The notes beneath the pieces were generated by a model. It had not been told where the DNA came from and did no database searches. It saw only the letters and a program-made list of their open reading frames with translations. Below are positions 35,583 through 52,786 of a DNA stretch of 64,000 bases, one piece after another. This DNA is from Malus domestica (taxonomy: Eukaryota > Streptophyta > Magnoliopsida > Rosales > Rosaceae). The stretch spans positions 37,283,001 to 37,347,000 of the forward strand of contig NC_091663.1 of the NCBI RefSeq assembly GCF_042453785.1, written 5' to 3'. Each line of letters begins with the position of its first letter. Positions within the stretch are counted from its first letter, which is position 1. The position numbers were made by a program, and so were the translations under genes.

Positions 35583-35889
35583 TATATCTGCGTATGCTAG
35601 AAAAGTCTTCAAGTTTGAACTGGTCGATCGAACTATATATTGTATAGACTAATTAGCATATATATGGCAGAAAGGTCCTCAAGTTTGAACTGGTCCAACG
35701 AACTATACATTGTATATAGACTAATTTGCATATATATGGCAATAAATTTTCTCTAAGATATATATATATTATAATATATATGAGAAATGCTAAGAAGACA
35801 TTCTCAAAAGTGGAACTCTCCATGAACTTTATGTCATTTTATGTTTTTTACACAATATATTTTAATATTGACACGGAAACTAATGTTTA
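35583..35889. other. Spacer with duplicated short blocks
   Basis: The phrase TCAAGTTTGAACTGGTC followed by TGTATA and GCATATATATGGCA occurs twice (35590-35670 and 35675-35745). A third, diverged copy lies at 55700-55770, and part of it is at 29806-29825. It belongs to the duplicated block around the membrane-protein gene. Confidence 0.55.
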
Positions 35890-35897
35890 ACGGTAAG

Positions 35898-38800
35898 TAG
35901 GCCTGGCAATTCCTGACACGACCCGATAACCCGACACGACACGACACGAAATTAACAGGTGTTTGGGTCGACACGATAACGAAACGGGTCGTTATCGGGT
36001 AACCCGATAAGCACCTGTTAAGATAACGGGTTTGTTCGGGTATACACGTGGGTAACACGATACACGATAAGCAGAATATTAATTTAATAATTTATAACCC
36101 TAAAAAAATACTATAATAATTATATATATATTAATTTAACAATTTTACACCCCTAAAAACTATAATAATTATATATATATATATGTATATATATTAAATT
36201 AACTATAATAATTATAATAATTATATATACTATAATAATTATACCCAAAATATTAACTATAATAATTATATATATATATATATATTAAATTTTATACCCC
36301 TAAAAACTATAATAATTATACATACAAAATAAATAGATTTAAATCTATTTAATAAATAAATATATATATATATATATATACAAACACACACCATTGAACT
36401 TCATGGGATACGAATTATACGAAACTAATTTCAACGATCCAACCGTCAAATATGTTTGTATATACTTCGAGATCGCATACGCCAAAAATTGCAAAAAAAA
36501 AACATTCAAAGAGCAAGTAATGAGACAAAACTTTTTGACGGTTATAAACGAAAAATAACGATTTAACGGTCATTTTAACTCCGATTTTGATGCTTTTTTA
36601 CAACCACACTCCTTGACCCTATATGAATACAATGATTGAATTCGATCTTCATTTTAAAATATTTACACTAGTGGATACCACAAAATCTTATGTTATACTT
36701 AATAAAAGTATGAATAAACTCTTAAGTATTAGTGAATCTATTGTTTTGATGGGATACTCATTCTACAAAACTAGTTTCAATGATCCAACCGTCAAACATG
36801 TTTGTATATACTTCGAGATCGCATACGCCAAAAATTGCAAAAAACAAACATTCAGAGAGCAAGTAATGGGACAAAAGTTTTCGACGGTTATAAACAAAAA
36901 ATCACGATTTAACGGTTATTTTAACTCCGATTTTGATGATTTTTTACAACTACACTCCTTGACCCTATATGAATACAAGTAATGAATTCGATCTTCAATT
37001 TAAAATATTTACACTAGTGGATACCACAAAATCTTATGTTATACTTAATAAAAGTATGAATAAACTATTAAGTATTAGTGAATCTATTGTTTTGATGGGA
37101 TACTCATTCTACAAAACTAGTTTCAAAGATCCAACCGTCAAACATGTTTGTATATACTTCGAGATCGCATACGTCAAAAAGTACAAAAAACAAACATTCA
37201 GAGATCAATTAACGGGACAAAACTTTTCGACGGTTATAAAAAGAAAAATCACGATTTAACGGTTATTTTAACTCCGATTTTGATGATTTTTTACAACTAC
37301 ACTCCTTGACCCTATATGAATACAAGTAATGAATTCGATCTTCAATTTAAAATATTTACACTAGTGGATACCACAAAATCTTATGTTATACTTAATAAAA
37401 GTATGAATAAACTATTAAGTATTAGTGAATCTATTGTTTTGATGGGATACTCATTCTACAAAACTAGTTTCAAAGATCCAACCGTCAAACATGTTTGTAT
37501 ATACTTCGAGATCGCATACGTCAAAAAGTACAAAAAACAAACATTCAGAGATCAATTAACGGGACAAAACTTTTCGACGGTTATAAAAAGAAAAATCACG
37601 ATTTAACGGTCATTTTAACTCTGATTTTGATGATTTTTTGCAGCTACACTCCTTGACCTTATATAAATACAATGATTGAATTCGATCTTCAATTTAAAAT
37701 ATTTACACTAGTGGATACCACAAAATCTTATGTTATACTTAATAAAAGTATGAATAAACTCTTAAGTATTAGTGAATCTATTGTTTTGATGGGATACTCA
37801 TTCTACAAAACTAGTTTCAATGATCCAACCGTCAAACATGTTTTTATATATTTCGAGATCGCATACGCCAAAAATTGCAAAAAACAAACATTCAGAGAGC
37901 AAGTAACGGGACAAAACTTTTCGACGGTTATAAACGAAAAATCACGATTTAACGGTTAATTTAACTCTGATTTTGATGATTTTTTACAACTACACTCCTT
38001 GACCTTATATGAATACAATGATTGAATTCGATCTTCAATTTAAAATATTTACACTAGTGGATACCACAAAATCTTATGTTATACTTAATAAAAGTATGAA
38101 TAAACTCTTAAGTATTAGTGAATCTATTGTTTTAATGGGATACTCATTCTACGAAACTAGTTTCAATGATCCAACCGTCAAACATGTTTGTATATATTTC
38201 AAGATCGCATACGCCAAAAATTGCAAAAAAAAAAAAACATTCAGAGAGCAAGTAATGGGACAAAAGTTTTCGACGGTTATAAACGAAAAATCACGATTTA
38301 ACGGTTAATTTAACTCCGATTTTGATGATTTTTTACAACTACATTCCTTGACCTTATATGAATACAATGATTGAATTCGATCTTCAATTTAAAATATTTA
38401 CACTAGTGGATACCACAAAATCTTATGTTATACTTAATAAAAGTATGAATAAACTATTAAGTATTAGTGAATCTATTGTTTTGATGGGATACTCATTCTA
38501 CGAAACTAGTTTCAAAGATCCAACCGTCAAACATGTTTGTATATACTTCGAGATCCCATACATCAAAAATTACAAAAAACAAACATTCAGAGATCAATTA
38601 ACGGGACAAAACTTTTCGACGGTTATAAAAAGAAAAATCACGATTTAACGGTCATTTTAACTCTGATTTTGATGATTTTTTGTAGCTACACTCCTTGACC
38701 TTATATGAATACAATGATTGAATTCGATCTTCAATTTAAAATATTTACACTAGTGGATACCACAAAATCTTATGTTATACTTAATAAAAGTATGAATAAA

Positions 38801-40824
38801 CTATTAAGTATTAGTGAATCTATTGTTTTGATGGGATACTCATTCTACGAAACTAGTTTCAAAGATCCAACCGTCAAACATGTTTGTATATACTTCGAGA
38901 TCCCATACTTAAAAAATTACAAAAAACAAACATTCAGAGATCAATTAACGGGACAAAACTTTTCGACGGTTATAAAAAGAAAAATCACGATTTAACGGTC
39001 ATTTTAACTCTGATTTTGATGATTTTTTGCAGCTACACTCCTTGACCTTATATGAATACAATGATTGAATTCGATCTTCAATTTAAAATATTTACACTAG
39101 TGGAAACCACAAAATCTTATATTATACTTAATAAAAGTATGAATAAACTATTACGTATTAGTGAATCTATTGTTTTGATGGGATACTCATTCTACGAAAC
39201 TAGTTTCAAAGATCCAACCGTCAAACATGTTTGTATATACTTCAAGATCGCATACGTCAAAAATTACAAAAAACAAACATTCAGAGATGAAGTAACGGGA
39301 CAAAACTTTTCGACGGTTATAAACGAAAAATCACGATTTAACGGTCATTTTAACTCCGATTTTGATGTTTTTTTACAACCACACTCCTTGACCCTATATG
39401 AATACAATGATTGAATTCGATCTTCAATTTAAAATATTTACACTAGTGGATACCACAAAATCTTATACTATACTTAATAAAAGTATGAATAAACTATTAA
39501 GTATTAGTGAATCAATTGTTTTGATGGGATACTCATTCTACGAAACTAGTTTCAATGATCCAACCGTCAAACATGTTTATATATACTTTGAGATTGCATA
39601 CGCCAAAAATTGCAAAAAACAAACATTCAGAGATCAAGTAACGGGACAAAACTTTTCGACGGTTATAAAAGAAAAATCACGATTTAACGGTCATTTTAAC
39701 TCCGATTTTGATGATTTTTTATAACTACACTCCTTGACCCTATATGAATACAATGATTGAATTCGATCTTCAATTTAAAATATTTACACTAGTGGAAACC
39801 ACAAAATCTTATGTTATACTTAATAAAAGTATGAACAAACTCTTAAGTATTAGTCAATCTATTGTTTTGATGGGATACTTATTCTACGAAACTAGTTTCA
39901 ATGATCCAACCGTCAAACATGTTTGTATATATTTCGAGATCGCATACGCCAAAAATTGCAAAAAACAAACATTCAGAGAGCACGTAACGGGACAAAAGTT
40001 TTCGACGGTTATAAACGAAAAATCACGATTTAACGGTTAATTTAACTCTGATTTTGATGATTTTTTACAACTACACTCCTTGACCTTATATGAATACAAT
40101 GATTGAATTCGATCTTCAATTTAAAATATTTACACTAGTGGATACCACAAAATCTTATGTTTATACTTAATAAAAGTATGGTATAGTACTATTGTTTTAT
40201 TTTTTTTCATAATTATTTTGGTAAACTTCTCATAATTTGAATGATTTTTAATGTTTGGTTTTTCTATGCTTAGTTTATGCAGAAGATAGTTATGACGTGG
40301 AAAACCTTACTGAAAACATCATCAACATAACTCTTGAAGGCAATAGATCAAGCCAAAGTTCTAATGCAATTTCATGATGATCGATGTAAATCGAGGATTT
40401 TGTAAATTGAGGTTTAAACTTTTGAGAAAGATTTCACAACTTTGAAAACAAAAACTGTTTCATTTTGCATATCCTTGCACATTTAAAATTTGTAATAGAT
40501 TAGTAGTGTATGTATTATTTTTTTATTAGGCTCTTATTTTCGAGTGTAGATGTAGTACTTAAACGACAAATGTGTTTTAATGTTTTGAAGTAATATTTAT
40601 GTGGCAATGTGTGGTATGTGCAAATTTAAGAAAAAAAATATATTTTTCTGAACGGGTCATAACGGGTCATAACGGGTCGGGTCACTTTACCCGTTGGGTA
40701 AAGTGACACGACCTGTTAAGGACCCGTTAAGATAACGGGTGTGACACGACACGACCCGTTAAGATAACAGGTGTTACACGAAAACGACACGAACACGACT
40801 GACACGACCCGTTTGCCAGGCCTA
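35898..40824. mobile_element. hAT-type element (4.9 kb) carrying a tandem-repeat array
   Basis: The 8-bp duplication ACGGTAAG (35890-35897 and 40825-40832) and the ends TAGGCCTGGCAA / TTGCCAGGCCTA define a hAT element. About 170 bp at each end is packed with CGGGT, ACACGAC and AACGGGT words in both orientations, the expected subterminal transposase-binding sites. The middle is a 3.8-kb array of a 347-bp unit (36395-40185). Downstream of the array, 40283-40374 could be the last exon of an old transposase (DSYDVENLTENIINITLEGN..., stop TGA) after an AG acceptor. No other transposase is present, so it is non-autonomous. Confidence 0.9.
36395..40185 (+). repeat. 347-bp tandem array: ten full units plus partial units at both ends
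   Basis: Full units begin near 36623, 36969, 37316, 37663, 38009, 38358, 38705, 39052, 39398 and 39744, with a partial unit before the first and after the last. Unit length is 346-349 bp, not a multiple of three. Each unit holds an ORF of 95-120 codons starting MNT(M/S)(I/N)EFDL and containing TKSYVILNKSMNKLLSISES. Units at 36969 and 37316 encode identical 96-residue products, and those at 38358 and 38705 differ at about two residues, indicating recent duplication. Each unit contains the palindrome GAAACTAGTTTC or a one-base variant. The predicted protein has no known domain and no signal peptide; coding function is doubtful. Confidence 0.9.
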
Positions 40825-42118
40825 ACGGTAAGATGACAAATAATTCTTGAAGAGTCTCACTTTAAAAGTCTTCTTAATTAACATTAATGATATATATATA
40901 TAGGACCATGACTAGAAGTCAACTCTACTTGGGCGTCGCGACCACTATATATTCTTGTTGGCAACTAATAATTGTGATCAATTTATCTTCTATTTTTTGG
41001 TAAAGCAGGACTTCATTAACAAGGAGTAAAACAGAGGAGCCACAAATGCAAAAGCTTCACTCCCAGCAGGGAGATGAAAAGTACAACCTTAGCATACAGG
41101 GAATACAAGAAACCCAGACAGAAAAGGAGGTACTGCCAAAAGCCATAAAAGGCAACCAAAAGGAGAGTGGAGGATCTCCACCGGCCTCAATCATCCGTAA
41201 TAGGAGGGCACGGTAAGCCGTAGAGTGAAAGAACCATCAACAAAGAGGGAGGGGGCGTTGCCGCCATCTACAAGTGCTCACCCTCAAGTTGGTCAGTTTA
41301 GCAGCAAAATGCGCTGCTTGATTCGAGGACCGTGAAGTCCACGTCCATCGGATATTGGAGAAGTGAGTAGCTAAGCGGCGAATGGCGGCAATTATCGGGA
41401 AAATGCGCCATGATCCTTTGTAATGACGATTAATGATAACATTGAAAACTGACTTTGAGTCGCTTTCAATAATGACTTCTTGTAGTTGATGTTCCCGAGC
41501 CAACAACATTCTTGCCAAAACAGCCTCCGCTTCAATCTCTTCGACAGTAGAACGTAATAAAAATTTTGCTTCTCCTCCCACCATCGAACCCATTGAATCA
41601 CGAAGGAAAGAAGTGGTCCAAGCCCCGTCCACATTCACTTTATAAAAACGAGATGCGGGAGCGGGCCAACTGAGGGAAGGTTGTGGTGATTCAAATGAGG
41701 AGGCATGGCGTAGGAAAGACACCCTTGCAGAAATATCACCAAACAAAAGCTTGCTTTTGGTAATCACACTAATAGGATTTGGACTGGTGTGGTTGAAGCA
41801 AGCATGGCTCCTCTCTTTCCAAATCTCCCAGCAAATAACTCCAATTTGTACCAGTAAGCATGTCTTATGTGAAGATGTAGCATATTGCCTCTGATCCATA
41901 GTCTGTAACCATTGATCGAAAGTAGTGATAGCTTGTCCATTGGGACAATAACCAACATTAGAGCCAAACCAAACATACTGAACCCAAGGGCAAAGAAGCA
42001 AACTGTGTTCAATGGACTCCTCATATTCTTGGCAAAAGGGGCATATTGGATTCGGAATAATGTGGCGACGAAATAAATTCAGCTTTGTAGGAATACAATT
42101 TGAGACAGCTCTCTAGAG

Positions 42119-48655: not shown

Positions 48656-51600
48656 TTACTCCCACTTTTCAAAAGCTTCCAATACTCCCATCCGAGTTAC
48701 ATGAGTCTTGAAAATTCCATTTGGCAATGCCTTTGTTAAAGGATCGGCAATCATCAAATCAGTAGTTAAAAGTTCCACCACTATTGCACCTTGCTTAACT
48801 TTCTCTCTGACTTTCAAGAATTTCACATCCATTAACCTCGAGGTTGAAGTCCTTTTGTTGTTCTTTGAGAAGAACACTGCAGAATTATTGTCACAGAACA
48901 TCTTCACTGGTCTCTGTATTGAGTCTACAATCTTCAACTCACTGACAAAATTCTTAAGCCAGATTGCCTGTTTCATGCCTTCAAAGCATGCCACAAACTC
49001 TGCTTCCATAGTAGAGGTAGAGATCATAGTTTGCTTGACACTTCTCCATGAAATAGCACCTTCATTAAACATGAAAACATAGCCACCAGTTGATTTTCTT
49101 TCATCCAGATCACCAGCCAAATCATAATCGGTATAACCAACTACTTCCAGTTCATTTGCTCCACCATAAACTAACATGAAGCTTTTTGTTCTCTGTAAAT
49201 ACCTTAATGCCTTCTTAGCAGCCATCCAATGTGATTCACCTGAATTAGATTGAAATCTGCCCAGCAAGCCAACAATGAAAGCAAGATCCGGCCTAGTACA
49301 TATGTTGGCATACATTAAACTGCCCACCAGAGAAGCATACGGTTTTGAACTCATTTTTCTCTTCTCCAACTCGGATTTAGGACATTGATCTCGAGTGAAT
49401 TTGTTTCCTTTATTCACAGGTACATCAGCACCGTTACAATCTTCCATATTGAACCGAATCAAAACTCTCTCAATATATCCCTTTTGTGATAGCACCAGAA
49501 ACTTCTTTGCTCTGTCTCTGATTATCTCAATCCCTAGGACATAATGAGCCTCCCCCAAGCCTTTCATCTCGAAGTTAGAACTGAGCATAGTCTTGGTTTC
49601 ATGCAGCAATTGCAAATTAGAACTAGCTCTCAAAATGTCATCCACATATAGTACCAGAAATATGAATTTGGTACCTTTGAACTTGGAGTATATGCAGTCA
49701 TTAAGCTTGTTCTCAGTAAACCCGTGTGCAGTCACAACTTTATCAAATTTAATATACCATTGTCTAGAAGCTTGTTTAAGTCCATAGATTGACTTATTAA
49801 GCTTGCAGACCAAACTATCCTTCCCTCTTTTAATGAATCCAGGTGGCTGCTTCATATGAATAGTTTCTTCTAATTCACCATTGAGGAAAGCTGTTTTTAC
49901 ATCCATTTGATGTAATTCAAGATCAAAATAGGCTGTTAATGCCATGATAATCCGCATAGAGTCCTTTGAAGAAACTGGGGAAAAAGTGTCACTAAAATCA
50001 ACCTCTTCCTTTTGTGTAAAGCCCTTTGCTACCAGCCGAGCCTTGTACCTTTCAATTCTACCTTGAGCATCTCTCTTGGTTTTGTAAACCCACTTGCAAC
50101 CTATTGGTTTAGTTTTAGAATCAGATTCCACCAAAGTCCAAACATTGTTCTTGGACATGGATTCTAATTCTTCTTCCATAGCCTTCTTCCATAATACAGC
50201 TTGTTGACTTGTCATTGCCTGAGAATAGGTCAGTGGATCATCAATATCTCCTAGATCAAACTCATTCTCTTGGAGGTATACATAGTCATTTGAAAAAACC
50301 GGTTTTTTCACTCTTGTTGAGTATCTCACAAGTTGCTGCACAGGTTGATGATTGAGTTCTTGAATTTCTTCAGTCACAGATTCAAGATTATCCTCAGCAA
50401 CAGGCTGCAACTCATTTTCAGTCATCTCAGTGTCTTCATTTCTAATTGTAGATGGTGTGTTTGAGAAAATTGGAATATGCAGACAGTCATTTATTGCAGC
50501 ATCATTAGTTGTTTGGTCAATTTCTTCAAATACAAAAGTTTCAGCTACCATATCTGCAACATCTTGGTCTTCAATGAACACAGCATTATGAGTATCTTGA
50601 ATCCGTGAATGAGCCTGTGGACAATAGAATTTATAGCCCTTGGATTTCTCAGAATATCCAATAAAGTAACAAGTTGTGGTTCTGGCATCTAACTTCCTTT
50701 CATTCGGATTATAAAATCGGCCCTCAGACTTGCATCCCCATACATGGAAATGCCCAAAGCTAGGCCTTCTACCTATCCAAACTTCAAAAGGTGTTCCTTT
50801 CACAGATTTAGTGGGCACTCGATTCAAAATATAGTTGGCAGTCTTGAGTGCTTCACCCCAGAGAAAACTAGGCAGTTTTGATCTTGAAATCATACTTCGA
50901 ACCATCCCAATTAAAGTTCTATTTCTTCTTTCTGAAACACCATTTTGTTGTGGTGTCCCTGGTGTAGTATACTGCGCCACAATGCCTTGTTACTGGAGAT
51001 ATATTGCAAAAGGGCCCTTCTGTTGTCCAGCTTCAGTGTACCTGCCAAAATACTCTCCCCATCTATCTGATCTAACAATTTTGATTTGTCTATTCAACTG
51101 CATCTCAACTTCAGTCTTAAAGATTTTAAAACAGTCAAGTATGGCTGATTTTTCACTAATGAGAAAAGTAGAACCATACCTAGAGAAATCATCAATGAAA
51201 TTCACAAAATAGCTATTCCCACATATGGTTTTAACAGGAAAAGGACCACAAACATCAGTATGCACAATCTCAAGAAGGTTTTGACTCATTTTTGCTTCAA
51301 AATTTATGATATTTGTTAACTTTCCTTTCATACAATCAACACACTCTTTTGCATTTTTGAAATCAAGTGCAGGAAACAAGTTTGCCTTGGCTAATTGTAA
51401 AACTCTTTCTTTTGAAATGTGACCTAGTCTTTTATGCCATAAACTATATGAAGACTCTGATTCATGCATTCGTTTAGCAGTAGTACTCAAAACAAGTGAT
51501 GGTTTTTCAAATATGTAGTCTATCTCCCACAATTCATCATGCAAAATAGCTGTCCAAAGTAAGGAATTTATTTTGTTTTTCTGAAAAAATTTTATGCATG

Positions 51601-52786
51601 AATCATCACAAAGAAAACCGAAACCTTGTTTGACCAATTTTGATGCAGAAATCAAACTTCTTCTCATATCTGGTACATAAAGAACATCTTTCAAATGAAG
51701 AACAAAACCTGATTTCATTTTAAGTTTCACAACCCCAATTGCTTCAACACCTACTTTTGTCCCATTCCCCACAAAAACATTGTAGGAGTCTTTATAAGTT
51801 TGTTTTTGTTTTTCAAATCCATGCAGTGTGTTTGTAATGTGAACTGAACATCTTGTGTCAAACCACCAAGAATTAGCAGGAATTTCAATCAAATTTGATT
51901 CTACACAAACATAGACATTAGTTATTCCTTTACTCCTTAGCCAATCCTTGAATGTTTCACAATCCTTTCTATAATGACCCTTGAGTTTGCAGTGATGACA
52001 TCTCACTTTAGTCACATCTTTCACATTATGTTTGTTAGATTTAGAGGGTTTTGAGTATTTTGCAGATTTAGCAGACTTATCGGCATGATTAGAGAATTTA
52101 GATGCCTTACCAGAAGCAATAGTGGTCTCCTAATTTCCAGCATGCACTAGGTTCACATCTTCTGTTTCTTTCATTTTCTTTTGCCTCTGCCGAGTTTCCT
52201 CTTGCACACATTGAGCAATTAACTCATCCACAGTCCAAGTCTTGTCTTGAGTGTTGTATGACACTTTCAATTGGCTATACTTCACTGGAAGAGCTTGCAG
52301 TATCATAAAAACCAGTTGTTTCTCACCGATGTTGACCTCCATGTAATTGAGTTTCTCTGCTGCATCCGACATCTTCATGATGTGATCTCTAATGGATGCA
52401 TTACCTTCAATTTTGTAGGTTGTCAAGATAGACATATATTGACTGATCTCTGCCTTTTCATATTCTTTAAACTTATTCTCAATGGCCTGAAGATAATCAA
52501 TAGCAAGATCATGCTTCTTGATTCCCCCTCTTACAGTATCTGTCATCCCACTTTCAAGGATGGATAAAGCAATTTTGTTGGCCCTAGTCCACCTTTCAAA
52601 CTCAGCCTTCTCTGTCTTGGTACTTTTGTCGGTCAATGGTGATGGTCTAGGCGTATCTAATGCTATATCAAACTCATTAAGAGTAAGCAATAGGCCAATT
52701 TCACGCCTCCATCTTTTGTAGTTACTACCCCCAGTGAGAATAGGAACACTAGCAAGGTTGAGAGTCTTTAGAGGCACTGCAGACAT
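48656..52786 (-). other. Copia gag-pol coding region (fossil)
   Basis: Parts in order on the minus strand: gag at about 52.8-52.1 kb; zinc knuckle CHHCKLKGHYRKDC near 52.0 kb; protease region near 51.8 kb; pre-integrase HKRLGHIS near 51.45 kb; integrase core about 51.3-50.8 kb; reverse transcriptase about 50.1-49.5 kb with YVDDI; RNase H region ending near 48.8 kb. The order gag, protease, integrase, RT, RNase H identifies Copia. Most of the region is open, with two or three breaks overall. Confidence 0.9.

Follow-up and report, generated by a model that had tools for sequence, protein, structure and literature searches.

Structure of the element

The stretch analysed here (the window) comprises 64,000 nucleotides of the apple (Malus domestica) genome, positions 37,283,001 to 37,347,000 of contig NC_091663.1 in assembly GCF_042453785.1. 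At window positions 35898-40824 lies a complete transposon of the hAT superfamily, with 12-bp terminal inverted repeats (TIRs), an 8-bp target site duplication (TSD) and an interior occupied largely by 10.9 tandem units of 346-349 bp. The TIRs are TAGGCCTGGCAA at 35898-35909 and TTGCCAGGCCTA at 40813-40824, and the TSD ACGGTAAG, to which no strand is assigned, occurs at 35890-35897 and again at 40825-40832. The window was scanned for perfect 12-bp inverted repeats that are separated by 100-20,000 bases and flanked by a perfect 8-bp duplication, the simplest words being excluded, and this pair (35890-40832) was the sole hit. Words of the types ACACGA and CGGGT number seven and seven in the 178 bp of the left end (35898-36075, plus strand) and seven and nine in 176 bp at the right end (subterminal repeats and TIR, 40650-40824, minus strand). 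They are absent from the 4.6 kb that separate the two ends, and elsewhere in the window they are present but much sparser.

The left end is followed by an AT-rich left interior (36076-36402, plus strand) that is homologous in other copies and in a transposase-bearing relative described below. Immediately left of the array, 36076-36324 is an imperfect AT-rich tandem repeat of ~49 bp, and the length of this region varies among copies. The array itself (36403-40180, plus strand) consists of ten full units and one 311-bp partial unit; Tandem Repeats Finder reported 10.9 copies of ~346 bp with 95% matches, and counting in the register of the open reading frame (ORF) that the units carry gives ten full and two partial units. 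A 367-bp exact match at a lag of 347 bp (36897-37610, plus strand) marks a recent one-unit duplication. To the right of the array, and likewise on the plus strand, lie the 3’ part of the last intron of a lost transposase gene, recognised by alignment with the relative and ending in TTTATGCAG (40181-40282), the last coding exon of that gene, EDSYDVENLTENIINITLEGNRSSQSSNAIS followed by TGA (40283-40377), and its putative 3’ untranslated region (40378-40649). The intron acceptor and the last exon are present in 20 of 20 elements, with an internal stop in the exon of one of them (L026). BLAST found the 347-bp unit nowhere else in the 64-kb window, and comparison with other parts of the element as a source of the unit gave just short matches. 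The initial annotation, made from the window sequence, had described the hAT borders, the dense subterminal words (confined, within the element, to its two ends), the ten full and two partial units and a recent local amplification; each of these descriptions stands, the last being borne out by the one-unit duplication and by block duplications elsewhere in the family.

Dispersal of the family

Searches were carried out in the genome to which the window belongs (651 Mb, 19 contigs). The search with one unit (best 40 of 2173 candidates scored) gave 377 matches, and the 150 of these that were listed fall in 40 loci including the window. The junction between the array and the right interior had 100 exact genomic matches, against none for a reversed control pattern. 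Twenty of the other loci were fetched. Each of them contains the array together with the right interior, the latter at 98.3-99.4%, and the left end is present at 95.5-99.4% in 19 of them, having been lost in L023. Perfect 8-bp TSDs flank 18 of 21 copies (the window and the 20 fetched loci), and all 18 are mutually different. For the 19 unit-search loci beyond these, the part seen is the right interior, which adjoins the array; the hAT right interior lies at the array edge in 40 of 40 loci, 20 by fetched sequence and 20 by coordinates. The search with the right interior (best 40 of 1197 candidates scored) yielded 12 loci that were cut out, among them the window and five unit-search loci, and all 12 carry the array. 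All 40 left ends scored in a third search (best 40 of 1292 candidates) matched at 99% or more, and for 39 of them a same-strand array edge was present as a partner; the exception is C9:11617337. One left-end/array pair spans 10.4 kb and would hold either about 29 units or an insertion.

The family is young and dispersed, and the array travels with the hAT. The mobile, array-bearing hAT proposed initially is supported by 18 different perfect TSDs and 100 identical junctions. Plant substitution rates alone would place the age of the family between a few hundred thousand years and one million years. At L016, a second stretch in the opposite orientation (29-1140), made up of units, right interior and right end, lies beside the first element, and its right interior is partly missing.

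Copy-number change in the array

Unit counts range from 4 to 17 in 40 copies, with 9 and 10 the commonest, and each array has an integral number of units and, in addition, one partial unit that is the same throughout, in keeping with the earlier expectation of other hAT copies with different unit counts. For 19 loci the number was calculated from coordinates, with the best match taken to be unit 2 because it is so in the window, and fell within 0.08 of whole numbers; the count for L021 is a lower bound, its array being interrupted by extra sequence. The right interior differs from its consensus by a mean of 0.6% (18 copies), whereas units inside one element differ by about 5%, which places the divergence of the units before the burst and the reshuffling of the arrays after it. 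Clustering of 186 units from 20 elements revealed a shared order at the array edges and block changes in mid-array, and second units are 98.6% alike across elements, the figure for arbitrary pairs of units from different elements being 95.0%. In L015 a 7-unit block has been duplicated: when units seven places apart are compared, six pairs in succession are 99.1-100% alike. L016 and L017 each have two such pairs at a lag of two; L017 has a further two at a lag of four (98.3 and 99.4%), and L019 has three, at a lag of three (98.8-99.7%). Some of these block duplications could be artefacts of assembly, which would hardly account for the full range seen on the various chromosomes. The array is most probably a hypervariable passenger that gains and loses whole units and unit blocks faster than the remaining element mutates, presumably by in-register exchange or slippage and perhaps during post-excision repair.

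Transposase-encoding relatives and origin

The last-exon peptide was sought genome-wide (best 150 of 387 candidates scored), and 40 matches were identical over all 41 residues while a second group matched at ~78-90%. In at least 11 places the last exon lies ~100 bp downstream of a Dimer_Tnp_hAT domain (PF05699). The transposase-bearing relative, L049 (C10:34409972-34415176), has the TSD GTTTTAAT on both sides, a left end 96.1% identical to that of the window copy and a right end 97.1% identical over 174 bp. About 3.8 units (34410441-34411754) are located upstream of its transposase gene, and the array is followed by a BED-finger frame (sub-threshold, at 19.5 bits against a curated cut-off of 20.6), the hAT RNase-H domain within an open frame of 573 codons, the Dimer_Tnp_hAT domain and the last exon. 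Homology between the window copy and this relative sets in at the array junction, at a point within the last intron where TATG is common to both. Units also lie upstream of Dimer_Tnp_hAT domains, on the same strand, at loci on C5, C8, C16, C3 and C15, where they span three to ten units among the matches listed. The initial annotation had set the array in place of a transposase, a view contradicted by these five loci and by the C10 relative, which has both.

Two further loci with hAT right ends carry homologous arrays. L045 has a perfect TSD and belongs to the same subfamily as the C10 relative (units ~95%), and in both of these the homologous units adjoin the same AT-rich left region; in L046 the hAT right end was found and the left end was not. 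Their arrays are ~88% (L045) and ~83% (L046) identical to the window unit, and the sequence between array and right interior is different. The extra 1.3 kb of L046 was considered as a transposase and rejected, as it contains no convincing frame. Because the transposase-bearing relative carries the array upstream of its gene, the array is older than the deletion derivative in the window; and because L045, L046 and the transposase loci carry arrays, it has long belonged to the 5’ region of the lineage.

By sequence comparison, the window’s family is very probably one of several internal-deletion products. Its ancestor would have been a transposase-encoding hAT that already held an array of ~347-bp units in its 5’ region. 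A deletion with one endpoint in the last array unit and the other in the last intron of the transposase gene, TATG being shared at the joint, would have removed all coding sequence save the last exon and kept both ends. The derivative then spread by cut-and-paste, presumably with transposase supplied by relatives. Mobilisation in trans, the mechanism of copy-number change and any role of the array are matters that we infer.

Superfamily assignment

Several features place the family in the hAT superfamily. The 8-bp TSD typical of hAT elements is present not only in the 18 copies counted above but also in L045 and the C10 relative. Target sites of hAT elements are biased towards nTnnnnAn, and T occupies position 2 in 12 of the 18 TSDs and A position 7 in 9 of the 18 (binomial p 6e-4 against 31%). 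The hAT RNase-H-like and Dimer_Tnp_hAT domains are absent from the window copy, the last exon excepted, and present in the C10 relative, whose ends are 96-97% identical. The 100 identical junctions, 18 different TSDs and 4-17 units in 40 copies further characterise the family as a transposon with internal tandem repeats. Miniature inverted-repeat transposable elements (MITEs) are under about 800 bp and without coding sequence, and the MITE label was rejected for this family, in which the 18 clean-bordered copies measure 2503-6658 bp and one coding exon is kept.

Taken together, these results make it very probable that the window element is a nonautonomous hAT transposon, with at least 100 family copies of its array junction, that arose by internal deletion from an array-bearing, transposase-encoding hAT. 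A number of points weigh against this conclusion. The 20 loci read were those closest to window unit 2 and not a random sample, three of the 21 copies (L011, L021 and L023) are without a clean TSD, the TSD of L025 (ATATATAT), counted among the 18, consists of simple sequence, and the TSD script permitted a one-base border shift. The TIRs of plant hAT elements are short, at least 8 bp, with the pattern [T/C]AGNGNNG as given in the available text of PMC6027215, and the 12-bp TIRs fit it at both ends except at position 5, which is C for G. The C10 relative was read in four pieces, with ~1.6 kb (34411801-34412599 and 34413101-34413899) left unread, a part for which the 573-codon open frame around the RNase-H-like domain was reported, and its right interior is 86% identical to that of the window copy, so that it is a relative and not a direct parent. 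At C15 the array is 948 bp from the domain and at C8 there are 4.1 kb and a short frame, and both loci therefore look incomplete or interrupted. Finally, that the family is moved by any transposase is itself something we infer.

Alternative explanations

The ORF of the unit had been singled out initially as a meaningful feature, present in every full unit. Ten ORFs of 95-120 codons, one per full unit, do occur in the window copy, and those at 36969 and 37316 have identical products, as had been noted for adjacent units. Across 20 copies, however, an 85-codon core is open in 125 of 166 frames and broken in 41, and the 146 standard-length cores contain 129 nonsynonymous, 39 synonymous and 13 stop variants, against neutral expectations of 129.2, 41.0 and 10.8. 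The unit ORF evolves neutrally, with no protein-level selection in this family, and its reading as a meaningful feature is therefore not supported. An array that encodes small proteins, one per unit, is on these figures close to inconceivable, even though the ORF is unusually long (when a circular unit was simulated 3000 times to first order, 95 codons were attained in 0.9% of runs and the consensus 120 in 0.17%), is open in all ten window units and has no stop among the 33 variants within the window (chance 0.12). Its product has no Pfam match, and a single-sequence structure model reached a mean predicted local distance difference test score of 42.9, a weak test since no alignment was used. 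Nothing in the family maintains the ORF. A frame open across all full units of one array resembled a gene and proves neutral family-wide, which calls for caution in similar cases. A structured RNA was also rejected, the fold of one unit being no better than that of shuffled sequences (z 0.16), and an Rfam search gave matches solely below the gathering scores of the families. An exact 28-base word of the unit was absent from viral contigs and a 29-base word from prokaryote genome contigs, and the unit had no plasmid match, an outcome expected of a plant repeat.

Three other accounts concern the origin and role of the array. Gap repair of hAT elements is known to leave filler where deletions are joined, and the junction here shares four bases with the intron of the relative, so that a pre-existing satellite could have been captured as filler in the internal deletion that founded the nonautonomous family. 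This is very unlikely, as the C10 relative, L045 and L046 carry homologous units and the array thus predates the deletion; with the array present in a transposase-bearing copy, capture by the window’s family was dropped, and any capture may have taken place at a deeper node. The initial annotation pictured instead a mobile satellite nursery, an element that seeds free tandem arrays persisting without hAT ends. The array does move and vary in length, and other arrays of related units exist, for example at C10:171368-176270 and C13:23271679-23278496, but all 40 unit-search loci (best 40 of 2173) have the hAT right interior and no free array was found among them, and L046, one array of the diverged group, has a hAT right end. 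The mobility of the array is established, the satellite nursery is half supported, and we consider seeding of this kind rather unlikely. It is improbable, too, that the array is functional, with units upstream of the transposase gene acting as promoter, enhancer or leader modules of which remnants are left in deletion derivatives. Its position between the left end and the transposase gene in the C10 relative and upstream of the domain at the five further loci, the homologous arrays of L045 and L046 and the lack of any array of fewer than 4 units among 39 copies counted roughly from left ends are all consistent with function, but no constraint is seen inside the ORF, the RNA fold is unremarkable and retention may also be passive. 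Slightly less credible again is a modular 5’ control region in which unit number would tune transcription or silencing of the transposase and be reset by repair at every excision, with selection for mobility keeping at least four units. If this were true, deletion derivatives would spread ready-made, length-variable regulatory or silencing arrays genome-wide.

Of these two examples, that at C10:171368-176270, close to the beginning of C10, contains at least 14 units of a diverged repeat (84-93% identity with the unit of L046) and is a candidate free array. At C13:23271679-23278496, at least six units of a second subfamily are spread over 6.8 kb.

Comparison with known elements

As an internal-deletion derivative of a transposase-encoding hAT, the window’s family resembles maize Ds-del, the nonautonomous internal-deletion derivatives of Ac (PMC3260210), in that both ends are kept, the coding region is lost by internal deletion and movement would take place in trans; it differs in that the retained interior is an array of variable copy number (4-17 units). 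Jozin, a transposase-bearing CACTA element of Chenopodium quinoa, contains an internal 171-bp satellite array of 32.5 monomers (5550 bp), with elements on four scaffolds, and a similar satellite in C. sosnowskyi is described as having no CACTA connection (PMC8978399). Jozin and the present family both belong to plant DNA transposon lineages with a transposase and a long array, but in Jozin the array is near the 3’ end and unit-by-unit variation across many copies is not described in the passage concerned, whereas in the present hAT lineage the array is 5’ of the gene. Tnat1 and Tnat2 of Arabidopsis thaliana are described in a review as having central tandem repeats of 60 or 240 bp (PMC10794571) and are alike in being plant elements with central repeats, though of different unit lengths.

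In animals, Xenopus miDNA4 and Xstir are described as transposable element ends around variable-number tandem repeats that are able to feed satellites (PMC12628747), and Drosophila Tetris and the Donax clam elements as transposons with satellite-like interiors. As far as these descriptions go, the animal cases are of MITE or foldback types, whereas the window’s family consists of 2.5-6.7 kb hAT copies and has a transposase-encoding relative with the array. Mouse LINE-1 (long interspersed nuclear element 1) has a variable number of tandem monomers 5’ of its gene, with a known promoter function. The analogy would lie in the variable unit number on the 5’ side, LINE-1 being a retrotransposon whose promoter role is known. 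Arrays inside DNA transposons are already known, and what is new, as far as our searches show, is a hAT lineage with a hypervariable array 5’ of the transposase gene, shared by its transposase-bearing and its deleted members; the window’s family was not found among the records listed by literature searches on hAT elements with tandem interiors, which reached few subscription journals.

With about 100 copies of one array inserted at separate places, the family is a natural set in which gains and losses of satellite-like repeats can be scored singly, the single-copy parts of the element serving as a neutral clock. The array is tied to a place upstream of a hAT transposase gene, and a regulatory role is therefore testable.

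Insertion context and other features of the window

An empty site with a single target copy, named initially as a check on the insertion, was found in a related form 36 kb downstream. At C3:37359894-37360055, 162 bases align with the 162 bases of the joined flanks at 88%, and the alignment crosses the joint; the wider site (C3:37359894-37360157) matches window 35801-40949 at 86-88% and is without the hAT. This is a paralogous copy and not an allele of the window locus. Among 37 further matches listed, 33 that are copies of the flanking repeat (73-80%) extend over the joint, with 10 bases or more to each side of it. The hAT sits in what appears to be a MITE-like short inverted-repeat element (about 35781-35889 and 40833-40895) that has relatives on many chromosomes.

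Elsewhere in the window, a Copia-type retrotransposon occupies 48656-52786 on the minus strand, with three large ORFs that contain gag, integrase and reverse transcriptase domains. Another ORF on the minus strand (41237-42001) has an RNase-H-like domain (PF13456), of a kind found in plant LINEs.

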